Shown here: positions 1 through 8,104 of the stretch, one piece after another | Numbering within the stretch: position 1 is the first letter of the stretch | Layout: every line of letters starts with the position of its first letter | Origin: Nitrosomonadales bacterium | Lineage (GTDB): Bacteria; Pseudomonadota; Gammaproteobacteria; Burkholderiales; Gallionellaceae | DNA length: 64,000 bases | Direction of reading: 5' to 3' | NCBI GenBank assembly: GCA_025408405.1 | Contig: JANYJE010000013.1 | Location: 18,490 to 82,489 of the forward strand | Made by a program: the position numbers and the translations under genes | Notes under the pieces: model-generated | What the model saw: the letters and a program-made list of their open reading frames with translations, nothing else | What the model was told of the DNA's origin: nothing | The model's database searches: none

Positions 1-1015
1 ACTTCATCATCTCCCCCGCCCGCAGCGGTACCAACTTGGAACCACCGAAGTCGACCGTGTGCGGCATGTGCCACTCTTCTCGACGCAACGTGACCTTCTC
101 CGCATTGCGCGGCAGGCCGTAGTAGTCTGCGCCATAAAAACTGGCAAAGGCTTCGAGCTTGTCCAGCGCGCCCGCTGCCTCGAACACTTCGGCATACAGC
201 TCGATGGCGGCATGCGCAGAGTAGCAGCCGGCGCAGCCGCAGGCGTTCTCCTTGGTGTGCTGCGCGTGCGGGGCGCTGTCGGTGCCGAGGAAGAATTTCT
301 TACTGCCGCTGGTGGCGGCTTGCACCAGTGCCTGGCGGTGCGTCTCGCGCTTGAGGATGGGCAGGCAATAGTAGTGCGGGCGGATGCCGCCGACCAGCAT
401 GGCGTTGCGGTTGTAAAGCAGGTGCTGCGGCGTGAGTGTGGCGGCGATGGTGTCGGGTGCACTCGTCACAAACTGCGCGGCCTCCTTGGTGGTGATGTGC
501 TCAAACACCACGCGCAGGCCGGGCAGATCTTGCAGCAACGGCTGCATGACGCGCTCGATGAACACAGCCTCGCGGTCGAAGATGTCGATGTCGGCGCTGG
601 TGACTTCGCCGTGCACCAGCAGCGGCATGCCGCAACGCTGCATTTCCTCAAGAGCTGAATAAGTCTTGCGCAGGTCGGTGACGCCGGCATCGGAGTTGGT
701 GGTGGCACCCGCCGGATAAAGCTTAACGGCGTGCACGATGCCGCTGGCTTTGGCTTTTTTGATTTCATCCGCAGAAGTATTGTCCGTGAGGTACAGCGTC
801 ATCAGCGGCTCGAACTGCATGCCTTTGGGGAGTGCGGCGAGGATGCGAGCGCGATATTCCTGGGCTTGCGCGGTGCTGGTGACCGGCGGCCTGAGGTTGG
901 GCATGACGATGGCGCGGGCGAACTGGCGCGCGGTGTCGGGTAAGACAGATGCCATCAGCGCGTCGTCGCGCAGGTGCAGGTGCCAGTCGTCGGGGCGGGT
1001 GAGTTTGAGTTCCAT
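1..1015 (-). CDS. pyrC: dihydroorotase (3' end at or just beyond the window edge)
   Basis: Minus-strand reading from ATG at 1015 gives [41 protein letters not shown]..., with the HLHLRD metal-binding motif; frame is open to the left edge (absent from ORF track because it runs off). Confidence 0.93.
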
Positions 1016-1074
1016 AGTGGTCATTCTATCAATAAGGCCTTTTGTTTAAATGCGCGGGAATGACGGATAGGGAT

Positions 1075-1941
1075 TTATTCCTGCTTTTTAATTTCCAGTG
1101 CGCGCTGGTACAGCTCGTTCTTGCCGGCCCCGGTAATCTGCACGGCCAGTTGCACCGCCTGCTTGAGCGGCAGCTCGGCCAGCAGGGTGGCCAGCACATG
1201 TTCGATCTCGGCGCTGAGCCCTTCTGCGCGCGCTGGTGCGGCAGATACCAGCACCACAAATTCGCCGCGCTGATGGTTGGGGTCGCTGTTCAGCCACGCC
1301 ATCGCCTCACCCAGTTTGCAGCGGTGAATGCTCTCGAACAGCTTGGTCACTTCGCGCGCCAGGACGATTTCGCGATCACTGCCGAACACACTGTGCAGGT
1401 CGGCAACGCATTCGAGAATGCGGTGTGGCGCCTCGTAAAACACCAGGGTGTATGGCGCCTCTATCAATATCTGCAACTCGCGGCAGCGTGCGGCTGATTT
1501 ATTCGGCAGGAAGCCGTAAAACAGGAAATGCGGCGTGGCGAAGCCTGCGGCGGAGAGCGCCGCCACGGCGGCGCTGGCGCCGGGAATGGGGATGACGCGA
1601 AAGCCCGCCGCGCGCACGGCCTCCACCAGCAGGGCGCCGGGGTCGCTGACCGCAGGTGTCCCTGCATCGCTCACCAGCGCCACGGCCTGGCCCTGTTGCA
1701 GCATGGCTACTACCTTCTCCGCCGCGCCGCGCTCGTTGTGCTGGTGCAGTGCCTGCAGGCGCTGCGCGGTAATGCCATAGTGGGTGAGCAGGTGCGAGGT
1801 GTTGCGCGTGTCTTCCGCCGCGATGACGTCGGCAGAGGTCAATATATCCAGCGCCCGCAGGCTGATATCACGCAAATTTCCAATCGGGGTGGCGACTACA
1901 TATAATGCGCACTCTAATTTCAGTTTTTGACCGCTATGCAA
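1075..1941 (-). CDS. rsmI: 16S rRNA (cytidine-2'-O)-methyltransferase
   Basis: LYVVATPIGNLRDISLRALDIL...AAEDTR...SDAGTPAVSDPG motifs of RsmI/YraL. Confidence 0.93.
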   Translation of the reverse strand: MHSGQKLKLECALYVVATPIGNLRDISLRALDILTSADVIAAEDTRNTSHLLTHYGITAQRLQALHQHNERGAAEKVVAMLQQGQAVALVSDAGTPAVSDPGALLVEAVRAAGFRVIPIPGASAAVAALSAAGFATPHFLFYGFLPNKSAARCRELQILIEAPYTLVFYEAPHRILECVADLHSVFGSDREIVLAREVTKLFESIHRCKLGEAMAWLNSDPNHQRGEFVVLVSAAPARAEGLSAEIEHVLATLLAELPLKQAVQLAVQITGAGKNELYQRALEIKKQE

Positions 1942-3312
1942 CGTTCTTCCTTCTGGCTTTTATTGTTGGTGGCACTATACGTTAGCGCTTGTGCCAGCGC
2001 TACCCGCGGCACGCCAGCCGCCGCACCGGCGGCACCTGTTGCGGCTGTGCCGGCTGTGGCCGCCCAGCCGCAAGCGACTCTCTCAGCACTTCCGCCCAGT
2101 TCGATTGAAATGAGTACGCTGCCTCCCGGTGCGTTGCCGCTGCCGACCGCCGACAACCCGGCGCCGCATATCGCGCTGCTGCTGCCGCTCAAGTCTCCCG
2201 CCTTTGCACGCGCGGCAGAAGCCGTTCAGCAAGGCTTCCTGGCGGCGGCCAGCAAGCAGCCAGGCCTGCCGGTACGCGTGTATGGCAGTTCGGACGACAC
2301 CCGCGACATTATTTCTCTGTACCGGCAGGCGCTGGCCAACGGCGCGGTGGCCGTAGCCGGTCCGCTGACGCGCGATGGCGTGGCGATTCTGGCTGGCTAC
2401 CAGGGAATTGCAGTGCCGACGCTTGCGCTCAACACCACCGAGGCCAAGCCCAGCACGTCTAAGTTGTTCTTTTACGGGCTGACCGCCGAAACCGAAGCGC
2501 GCCAGATTGCCCAGCAAGCGGCACGCGCCAAGTATCGCGACGCAACCATTATCAGCACCGGCTCGGCACTGTCCAAGCGCCTGGCTCTGGCTTTTGCCGA
2601 GGAATGGAAAAACCTGGGCGGCAATGTCACCGCCGAAGTGGTGTACAACAACAACCCTGCTGCGCTGGTCGATCTTCCCGTTGCACCGTGGCCACCCGGC
2701 ATGTCACCGCCCGTACCCGCATCTGCGGTTTCTGCTGATGGCGAGCCCACTGTTATCAAGCGCCCCTTACCACCGCCGGTTGCACCCAGCAACGTTGCCT
2801 TCCTGGCTGCTGACAGTACCCAGGCGCGCCTAATACGCCCGTATTTCAACCCCAGCCTGCCTGTTTATGGCACTTCGCAGCTGTTCAACGGCAATGGCGA
2901 TACGCTCACCAACTACGACCTCAACGACATTCGCTTCGTCGACATGCCGTGGCTGGTGCAGCCCGATCATCCTGCCGTGGTGTTCTACCCGCACGCCAAT
3001 CCGCCGCTGGAAGCGGACATGGAGCGCCTGTATGCGCTCGGTGTCGACGCCCATCGCCTGCTGCATATCCTGCTGCAGAACGCACAACGCACGGCGCTGC
3101 CACTGGACGGGGTAACCGGGCGCATCCGCCTGAAGGATGCCAACACTTTCCAGCGTGAATCGGTTTCCGCCTTGTTCAGGCTGGGACGCGGCCTGACACC
3201 TGAAGCACTCACCGCCATCAACGCGGCCAAGGCCGCCGAGAAAGCGGCGGAGATCGCCGCGCGCAAGGCAGCCGAGAGCGCGAGTAGTAGCGTACCCACA
3301 CCGACGCGATGA
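1927..3312 (+). CDS. lpoA: penicillin-binding protein activator LpoA/LppC-like lipoprotein
   Basis: Lipoprotein signal (LLLLVALYVSACAS), periplasmic-binding fold sequence (HIALLLPLKSPAFARAAEAVQQGF); synteny rsmI-lpoA-yraN-diaA-dolP. Confidence 0.82.
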   Translation: MTAMQRSSFWLLLLVALYVSACASATRGTPAAAPAAPVAAVPAVAAQPQATLSALPPSSIEMSTLPPGALPLPTADNPAPHIALLLPLKSPAFARAAEAVQQGFLAAASKQPGLPVRVYGSSDDTRDIISLYRQALANGAVAVAGPLTRDGVAILAGYQGIAVPTLALNTTEAKPSTSKLFFYGLTAETEARQIAQQAARAKYRDATIISTGSALSKRLALAFAEEWKNLGGNVTAEVVYNNNPAALVDLPVAPWPPGMSPPVPASAVSADGEPTVIKRPLPPPVAPSNVAFLAADSTQARLIRPYFNPSLPVYGTSQLFNGNGDTLTNYDLNDIRFVDMPWLVQPDHPAVVFYPHANPPLEADMERLYALGVDAHRLLHILLQNAQRTALPLDGVTGRIRLKDANTFQRESVSALFRLGRGLTPEALTAINAAKAAEKAAEIAARKAAESASSSVPTPTR

Positions 3313-3653
3313 GCTCGGCGGGTGCGCAAGCCGAGCAACTGGCTGCGCAGTTTCTGCAACAGCACGGCTTGAAGCTGTTGCAGAGCAATTACCGCTGCCG
3401 TTTTGGCGAGATTGATCTGATCTGCCAGCACCATGACACCCTCGTTTTCGTGGAAGTACGATTGCGCAGCCACGCCGGCTTTGGCGGTGCCGCCGCCAGC
3501 ATTGATGCACGCAAAAAGGCCAAGCTGGTACGCAGCGCACAACATTATCTGGCCGCACTCGCGCATATTCCGCCCTGCCGCTTCGATGCGATCCTGATGC
3601 AATCCACGGATATCCATGGCATTGAATGGGTCAAGAATGCTTTTGCCGTCTGA
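3309..3653 (+). CDS. yraN: YraN family (UPF0102) putative endonuclease
   Basis: AEQLAAQFLQQHGLKLLQSNYRCRFGEIDLICQHHDTLVFVEVRLR; 4-nt overlap with lpoA. Confidence 0.92.
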   Translation: MSSAGAQAEQLAAQFLQQHGLKLLQSNYRCRFGEIDLICQHHDTLVFVEVRLRSHAGFGGAAASIDARKKAKLVRSAQHYLAALAHIPPCRFDAILMQSTDIHGIEWVKNAFAV

Positions 3654-6458: not shown

Positions 6459-6494
6459 GCGCCAAGCCATCTACTTTATTAACTCTCGGGGAAA

Positions 6495-7418
6495 GTGATG
6501 TCGAGTCTTAGACAATATTTCGACACGGATTTTGACTACGCGCTGCGAGTAAATTTCACTTTCCCAGCAGCAACCCTTCCATGTGTTGCCGCTCTCCTTT
6601 ATGACGCAAATGCAGAAGCTGCCTTCCTTTCCTTCTATTTTGAAGATGCAACTCTTCGACCCGAGCAGTTTGTTTCATTCTTAGAGCCAATTAAGTACGG
6701 ATCAATGCAGCTGTCGCTCCAAGGTGGAATTGTGTTGCCTGCCGCACGAGTTTTCCAAGGCGCATTGCGAATCCACAATGAGAACCCTTTCAAGGTCGAG
6801 TACCAGTTCTTTGGTGACCCATCTTGGCATGACTTGCTTGCCACCGCCCCAACCCGCCGGATCTTTATTTATGCCGAGACAGCACTAACAGCAGAAGAAA
6901 TTTGCAATTTACAAGCGTCCGCCAAAAACTTGGGACATGAACTACAGTTTAGGGACGCAGCCTATGCAAAAGAACGGACATTGCGTGAAAAGCCACTAGC
7001 TTTTATTAGCCACGACTCCAGAGATAAAGAAGCAATTGCTCGACCAATTGCGCTCAATCTTCAGAGAAAAATCTGCCCCGTTTGGTACGATGAATTCTCT
7101 TTGTCACTTGGAGATAATCTTCGCGAGAAGATCGAGCGTGGCCTTCGTGAGTGCAAGAAGTGCGTGCTAATCCTAAGTCCAAATTTCTTAAGCAATCGTG
7201 GCTGGGGAAAGAAAGAATTCGAATCAATATTTACACGTGAAATTTTGGAAGATGCTCGCCTTGTTCTGCCAGTTTGGTGTGGTGTTAGCAGACAAGACAT
7301 CTTTAACTACAGCCCATCTCTGCTGAACGTAAAAGGTGTCGATTGGAATATGCTCGGCGAAGAAGAGGTGTGCAGGCAAATATATCTTGCCGTCAGCAAT
7401 GCAACTTCTTCCACGTAG
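6495..7418 (+). CDS. TIR-domain protein with uncharacterised N-terminal domain
   Basis: C-terminal KPLAFISHDSRDKEAIARPIALNLQRKICPVWYDEFSLSLGDNLREKIERGLRECKKCVLILSPNFLSNRGWGKKEFESIF is a TIR/TIR_2 domain; about 165 N-terminal residues not recognised. GTG at 6495 or ATG at 6498. Confidence 0.85.
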   Translation: MMSSLRQYFDTDFDYALRVNFTFPAATLPCVAALLYDANAEAAFLSFYFEDATLRPEQFVSFLEPIKYGSMQLSLQGGIVLPAARVFQGALRIHNENPFKVEYQFFGDPSWHDLLATAPTRRIFIYAETALTAEEICNLQASAKNLGHELQFRDAAYAKERTLREKPLAFISHDSRDKEAIARPIALNLQRKICPVWYDEFSLSLGDNLREKIERGLRECKKCVLILSPNFLSNRGWGKKEFESIFTREILEDARLVLPVWCGVSRQDIFNYSPSLLNVKGVDWNMLGEEEVCRQIYLAVSNATSST

Positions 7419-7511
7419 GATAGACAGGGCAAGAACCCCTTCTTGTCACTTGCACCCCGCCCCCGTTTGCGCGATGATGCGCATCACATTTGCAATGCAC
7501 GAGGTATTCCC

Positions 7512-7781
7512 ATGAAAACCGCCACCATGCCGCCGCTGCGCGTGCAGCCCGAACTGCGCCAAGCTGCCGAGGAGATGTTGCGTCCCGGCGAGACGCTTTC
7601 GGCATTCGTCGAGGAATCGCTGCGCCGCAACGTGGAGCGGCGCCGAGCGCAGCAGGAGTTCATCGCGCGCGGGCTGGCTTCGCGTGATGCCGCGAAGGAA
7701 AGCGGAGAATACGTTTCGGCCAAAAAAGTATTGAGCAAGCTGAGCGCAAAGCTGAAGAAGGCACAACAAGCTGCGAAATGA
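7512..7781 (+). CDS. YlcI/YnfO- or RHH-type antitoxin
   Basis: MKTATMPPLRVQPELRQAAEEMLRPGETLSAFVEESLRRNVERRRAQQEFIARG; small protein overlapping a downstream ParE-like gene by 4 nt. ATG at 7512 preferred over the 7443 ORF start. Confidence 0.82.
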   Translation: MKTATMPPLRVQPELRQAAEEMLRPGETLSAFVEESLRRNVERRRAQQEFIARGLASRDAAKESGEYVSAKKVLSKLSAKLKKAQQAAK

Positions 7782-8083
7782 GTTATCGCATCCGTTTTAC
7801 CCTGCGGGCAGAGGATGATTTACTGCGCTTGTTCGATTTCCTGCTGGGGCAGGATGTCGCCGCCGCCGCGCTGGCCGAAAGCGCCCTATACAAAGGCATT
7901 GAGGCGCTGGAACTGTTTCCCTTTTCCTGCCGCAAGGCGGATGCCGAGTCCGACAACCCGTTCCTGCGGGAACTGATCATCCCGTTCGGAACCGCTGGCT
8001 ATGTCGTCCTGTTCGAGATTGAGAATCATAAGACCGTGACGATACTGGCGGTGCGCCACCAGCGCGAAGACGATTATCTTTAA
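7778..8083 (+). CDS. ParE/RelE-family toxin
   Basis: MSYRIRFTLRAEDDLLRLFDFLL...NPFLRELIIPFGTAGYVVLFEIENHKTVTILAVRHQREDDYL, with the ParE-type C-terminal ILAVRHQRE..Y. Confidence 0.87.
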   Translation: MSYRIRFTLRAEDDLLRLFDFLLGQDVAAAALAESALYKGIEALELFPFSCRKADAESDNPFLRELIIPFGTAGYVVLFEIENHKTVTILAVRHQREDDYL

Positions 8084-8104
8084 CCTGACTATATCTGGAG
8101 AATC

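Follow-up and report, generated by a model that had tools for sequence, protein, structure and literature searches.

A two-domain TIR protein with an unrecognized N-terminal domain as a candidate single-gene anti-phage system

The stretch of DNA analyzed here (64,000 nucleotides, hereafter the window) encodes a protein that joins an unrecognized N-terminal domain to a C-terminal TIR domain of the AbTir type. From its domains, its catalytic residues, the absence of a partner gene and the mobility of the gene, all of which are read from sequences and structural models, we consider it probable that a single gene here encodes a self-contained anti-phage protein of the "sensor plus TIR NADase" kind, which acts by SpbK-like abortive infection. 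The original prediction had raised a single-gene system as a possibility. It has become the best reading, because no partner is found near the gene or its homologs and the genome encodes no SIR2_2 protein. The sensor–TIR kind of protein is already known; what is new here is the putative sensor domain, which is unrecorded in the libraries searched. Our literature search found no paper that names this combination of N-terminal domain and TIR, although descriptions beyond the literature searched may exist.

The open frame at 6495–7418 on the forward strand, which the original prediction had taken for a genuine gene, is borne out, but its start is moved. In the first reading, translation began at GTG 6495. 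ATG 6498 appears to be the better start, since the homologs begin M-A/S-T/S-x-x-x-Y-F and a probable ribosome-binding site read off the sequence, GGGGA (6488–6492, forward strand), lies 5 nt upstream. With its start taken from the homolog N-termini, the gene spans 6498–7418 (forward strand) and encodes 306 amino acids followed by a stop codon; residue numbers below count from ATG 6498, such that E240 here is E241 when counted from the GTG. The gene was also described as more AT-rich than its neighbors, and its GC content of 0.46 and GC3 of 0.44 compare with 0.54–0.64 and 0.65–0.82 in the flanking genes measured. As a separate observation, the window as a whole (1–64000) has a smooth V-shaped GC profile centered on replication origin genes, running from 0.61 at the left end through 0.35 at 32–36 kb (dnaA, dnaN) to 0.56 at the right end, and the dip around the origin is deep and roughly symmetric.

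The TIR domain comprises residues 168–297 (6999–7388, forward strand), in agreement with the earlier placement of a TIR domain from about residue 167 to the end. Pfam TIR_2 matches residues 169–264 at 2e-16, and the score of 61 bits against a curated cut-off of 28 places the protein in the TIR domain superfamily; the Pfam TIR model (PF01582) matches at 3e-6. A phmmer search of the PDB returns AbTir (7uwg) at 2e-25 over residues 168–295 and BtTir at 1e-20, followed by BtpA/TcpB and PdTIR, and Foldseek with the AF2 model also returns AbTir (7uxu, E 3.5e-10, TM 0.80 on the target); BtTir, too, is close in fold as well as in sequence. In the full-length model, the TIR regions around residues 191–220 and 231–260 are of moderate or low confidence only. 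The closest solved relative is AbTir, an NADase of Acinetobacter (A. baumannii).

The NADase activity of AbTir needs each of S140, R151, D167, V193, W204, E208, R215, and Y238 (PMC11374754). These residues align with S171, R182, D198, L224, W236, E240, R247, and Y271 of the window protein, which is identical to AbTir at all of these positions except L224. The presence of a WxxxE motif with its glutamate, together with the equivalents of S140, R151, D167, R215, and Y238, assigns the domain to the AbTir type of catalytic TIR. W236 (7203–7205, forward strand; AbTir W204), in the WxxxE motif, and E240 (7215–7217, forward strand; AbTir E208) are invariant in 23 of 23 aligned homologs, as are D198 (7089–7091, forward strand; AbTir D167) and the string CPVWYDEF within which it lies. 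In AbTir, NADase activity is lost in the D167A variant and activity is likewise lost in W204A, with W204 reported as necessary for 2'cADPR (PMC11374754), and E208 has the role of the catalytic glutamate (PMC11374754, PMC10022894). The original prediction had placed the glutamate after the conserved tryptophan, codon 7215–7217, at the catalytic site, and its alignment with AbTir E208 makes E240 the predicted catalytic glutamate. Because the residues essential in AbTir are kept and W236, E240, and D198 are invariant, the NADase chemistry of the domain is very likely intact, and we infer that the protein is an active NAD+-cleaving enzyme. Some TIR domains make signals rather than deplete NAD+, a distinction that sequence cannot draw.

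The N-terminal domain comprises residues 1–165 (6498–6992, forward strand). These residues were earlier reported as unrecognized, and they remain so, also at the level of the fold: none of the Pfam, NCBIfam, or PADLOC models matches them at threshold, and a profile built from 21 sequences hits no solved protein among the PDB sequences (best E 0.2). From an alignment of 21 homologs, AF2 confidently predicts one domain (mean pLDDT 91.2, pTM 0.86) of alpha/beta type with eight strands in the order H-E-E-E-H-E-E-E-E-H-E-H. The first half of the model consists of a helix (4–10), three strands (16–21, 30–36, and 41–48), and a second helix (55–62), and the second half consists of four strands (73–79, 88–93, 99–104, and 118–126), a helix (132–144), a strand (148–152), and a final helix (154–163). 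Four residues, Y47, R121, Y125, and R152, are nearly invariant in the homolog alignment. The original prediction had proposed a fold search of this region, and Foldseek returns no significant match in either the PDB (best E 0.14) or the viral models. Among the viral models, RPB5 subunits score best (E from 1.3e-3, with TM 0.39, to 0.1; TM 0.36–0.40 overall), a match too weak for the domain to be called an RPB5-like known fold, and two restriction enzymes, MspJI (TMq 0.41) and EcoT38I (TMq 0.37), rank low in the PDB search at E 0.7–0.95. The N-terminal part of RPB5 groups with restriction-endonuclease-like folds. A degenerate nuclease-like fold may be considered as a lead only. Beyond the probable single-gene function, a more tentative proposal, plausible but short of probable, is that the domain has a new sensor fold, recognizes a protein of the phage directly, and sets off assembly of the TIRs, in which case the protein would represent a single-gene immune family of its own, widely exchanged and absent from Pfam, NCBIfam, and PADLOC.

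Homolog loci were collected from a scan of GTDB genomes (27), from IMG/VR (five), and from profile searches (five more); some end at contig edges, and one (L015) is frame-broken. More than 30 homologs, from at least seven phyla, have exactly this pair of N-terminal domain and TIR. Carriers in the GTDB scan include Nitrosomonas, Azospira, Caballeronia, Methylobacter, Stutzerimonas, Nitrospira, and Bacteroidales, as well as Anaerolineales, Planctomycetes, Opitutaceae, Pyrinomonadaceae, and a Mycobacterium. In the intact hits from profile searches of ≈770 genomes and from contig scans, the N-terminal domain always occurs with a TIR. An N-terminal domain joined to another effector was considered as well, and the sole N-only match (L081) looks like a truncated remnant. 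Full-length matches, with the window's own genome included, occur in four of 399 genomes of the order, three of 369 of the class, and one of 399 of the phylum sample, and no family member is found in the other 59 near relatives. As judged from these sequences, the family is rare, sporadic, and horizontally spread; transfer is indicated by the 93% identity of the Methylobacter (L010) and Nitrosomonas (L012) proteins and the 81% identity of the Methylobacter and planctomycete (L011) proteins across such distant carriers.

The two domains diverge at different rates. Relative to the window protein, identities in the N-terminal domain and the TIR are 66/82, 61/78, 48/78–81, 36/71, and 28/62 percent. 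In pairs without saturation, dN/dS is 0.03–0.29 in both domains, values that point to purifying selection on each, and dN is 1.3–3 times higher in the N-terminal domain than in the TIR. Faster divergence of this kind is expected of a sensor that faces variable targets, and it would fit a conserved effector combined with a more variable sensor, short of proving an arms race.

When the genes lying up to 8 kb from 33 loci are compared all against all, no family recurs at more than two of the loci, and there is therefore no conserved partner gene. The immediate neighbors are mostly housekeeping genes, and most chromosomal homologs stand singly outside dense defense islands, which counts against the anti-phage reading. 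A sizeable minority of homologs have phage, integrase, transposon, restriction, PDC-S15, or PDC-S21 neighbors. Near one homolog (L014) lie a type I restriction R gene and the gene for a DUF4062 protein, and L027 has restriction-type genes in common with L014; an FRG/PDC-S15 gene lies near L031, and L035 sits directly between a phage-type tyrosine integrase and a DUF4917/PDC-S21 defense candidate. Two others (L032 and L071) adjoin resolvases, and L069 and L070 adjoin genes that we take to be transposase genes. Of the five homologs on IMG/VR viral contigs, four have phage late, lysis, or structural genes as neighbors; the genes adjoining viral-contig homologs encode a major head protein (L037), head and portal proteins (L041), a tape-measure protein (L040), and a DNA methyltransferase with an Rz-like spanin (L039). 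Overall, these neighborhoods suggest a possible enrichment of defense and mobile genes near the homologs. The neighborhood survey proposed in the original prediction thus gives a divided answer, with phage and mobile carriage and some defense neighbors on one side and, on the other, a majority of chromosomal copies that are single amid housekeeping genes.

Several local arrangements are recorded in their own right. The integrase, TIR, and DUF4917 (PDC-S21) genes of L035 form a compact cassette (70–3437), and the tyrosine integrase near L013 (1988–3439) is of the same DUF6538 type. An insertion sequence adjoins L070 (1468–3805), with parts on both strands that look like IS66-type copies flanking the homolog. 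In another proteobacterium, a yjdM/PhnA-like gene (L030, 9330–9671) lies directly upstream of a distant TIR homolog, and yjdM is close in the window as well. Two distant homologs from different phyla (L031, 7568–9733, and L033, 6797–8593) lie directly behind lepA.

In the window, ubiE lies upstream of the TIR gene, and a toxin–antitoxin pair and yjdM lie downstream. Relatives likewise have ubiE and then yjdM, with variable content between them. In a member of the same genus (L045), the gap is only ≈118 bp and the site is empty; in L047, it holds a DUF4145-like gene and the same antitoxin/ParE pair (62–70% identical); L044 and L046 have unrelated small genes, the former with a remnant of the pair; and in L054 an apparent HigBA pair separates ubiE from tim44. 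Among the relatives compared at this site, only the window genome has the TIR gene, which is horizontally acquired. A search for scars of its acquisition around 6459–7419 gives no clear repeats, promoter, or terminator beyond chance. The ubiE–yjdM gap itself (6459–8104) is a variable insertion site among relatives, and the pair within it (7512–8083) consists of an antitoxin with a YlcI/YnfO N-terminal domain and a ParE toxin. The earlier observation that a toxin–antitoxin pair adjoins the TIR gene is correct in that the pair is real, but it is a separate resident: because L047 carries the pair without a TIR gene and L044 carries a remnant, the pair belongs to the site and not to the TIR gene.

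The closest worked-out analog of the window protein is SpbK from the ICEBs1 element of Bacillus subtilis, which is likewise a single gene encoding an N-terminal sensor and a C-terminal TIR NADase in a mobile-element context. The N-terminal domain of SpbK, a 94-residue four-helix bundle, docks on the SPbeta phage portal YonE, which clusters the TIR domains and switches on NAD+ cleavage (PMC12847820). The window protein instead has a predicted alpha/beta domain of ≈165 residues, and at E 1e-3 the PADLOC spbK model picks up only two of 23 family members. The resemblance is one of logic, in that a sensor–TIR gene has no conserved neighbor in 33 loci, and not one of N-domain homology; we propose the same logic with a different sensor. 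AbTir, described as a nonimmune TIR (PMC10022894), and BtTir share a TIR ≈35% identical to that of the window protein, but the N-domain profile finds neither of them nor any other solved protein. The best PADLOC match of the window protein is PDC-S66, an uncharacterized phage defense candidate in which ≈145 residues precede a TIR. This model matches 23 of 23 family members, but the match covers only 145–276 of its 282 positions, is mainly confined to the TIR, and leaves the N-terminal parts without alignment; a plasmid DUF1883–TIR protein matches the same model likewise over the TIR only. Such plasmid-borne proteins also pair an N-terminal domain with an AbTir-like TIR, but a DUF1883 identity for our domain is rejected by hhalign profile comparison (probability 0.1%). 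No SAVED, STING, APAZ, NACHT/TPR, or CARF domain is among the Pfam, NCBIfam, and PADLOC hits of the protein, and models of CBASS, short pAgo, TIR–NLR, and CRISPR Cat1 systems match its TIR only. On the tests made, the protein is not a member of Thoeris ThsB, SpbK, PDC-S66, CBASS, pAgo, or NLR systems. The original prediction saw no Thoeris, CBASS, or pAgo partner, and none is found near the gene or its homologs.

The main rival to a self-contained system is a ThsB-like sensor and cyclase, in which the TIR would make a cADPR-type messenger that switches on an effector whose gene lies elsewhere in the genome. ThsB1/ThsB is the second-best PADLOC match (4.5e-23), the ThsB1 model shares the layout of the window protein (TIR at about 166–299 of 303) in a protein of similar size (≈300 amino acids), the match extends weakly into the second half of the N-terminal domain in L014, L035, and L071, and AbTir itself makes 2'cADPR (PMC10022894). 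The window protein, however, matches the ThsB1 model over the TIR only (169–294 of 303), and in planta ThsA activity was not enhanced by AbTIR, a producer of 2'cADPR (PMC10022894). Full-length ThsB1 relatives were sought for an N-domain comparison, and 299 genomes gave TIR-part matches only. No ThsA is found among the families listed at 1e-10 for the nearest ORFs of the homolog loci, and the window's own genome has no SIR2_2 protein in a search whose controls matched; a STALD search of this genome also gave no match, as did its control. The absence of ThsA-type neighbors and of SIR2_2 weakens the ThsB-like explanation, which we regard as rather unlikely.

Less likely again is a prophage-derived accessory gene that benefits its element, through superinfection exclusion or element stabilization, rather than the chromosome; the enzymology would be the same. 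The phage late, lysis, or structural genes beside four of the five IMG/VR homologs speak for it, but the window copy, set between ubiE and the toxin–antitoxin pair with yjdM, has no phage gene nearby. It is very improbable that the protein is a host-interaction effector acting on eukaryotic cells as Brucella BtpA does: its TIR is also similar to BtpA/TcpB, but the family is carried for the most part by free-living environmental bacteria and phage contigs, the N terminus (MSSLRQYF) has by eye no obvious secretion signal, and no secretion-system genes are recognized nearby. We give equally little weight to the idea that the gene is part of the adjoining antitoxin/ParE module or a nonfunctional leftover, given that the L047 site holds the pair without the TIR gene and L044 a remnant, the TIR homologs have no recurrent toxin–antitoxin neighbor, the frame is open, and dN/dS among homologs is well below 1.

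Under the single-gene reading, the TIR domains would be held apart and inactive in the uninfected cell. Upon infection, the N-terminal domain would bind a product of the phage, which may be part of the virion, as is the case for SpbK and for Sau-Thoeris, in which the major head protein is sensed by a TIR protein (PMC12578639). This binding would cluster the protein, and the clustered TIR domains would assemble head to tail, with active sites forming between neighbors. Cleavage of NAD+ would then yield nicotinamide together with ADPR or cADPR isomers, and the population would be protected because the infected cell stops growing or dies. The trigger, the oligomerization, the loss of NAD+, and the protection are the steps that we infer.

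If this reading is true, a compact one-gene immune sensor would join the short list of TIR systems, and its trigger could be found by simple escape-mutant genetics. Its sensor domain would lie outside existing defense-finding models, and the genomes that carry it would be under-annotated because those models lack the N-terminal domain. Because the family is small, well aligned, and predicted to fold well, the specificity of the sensor would be directly mappable.
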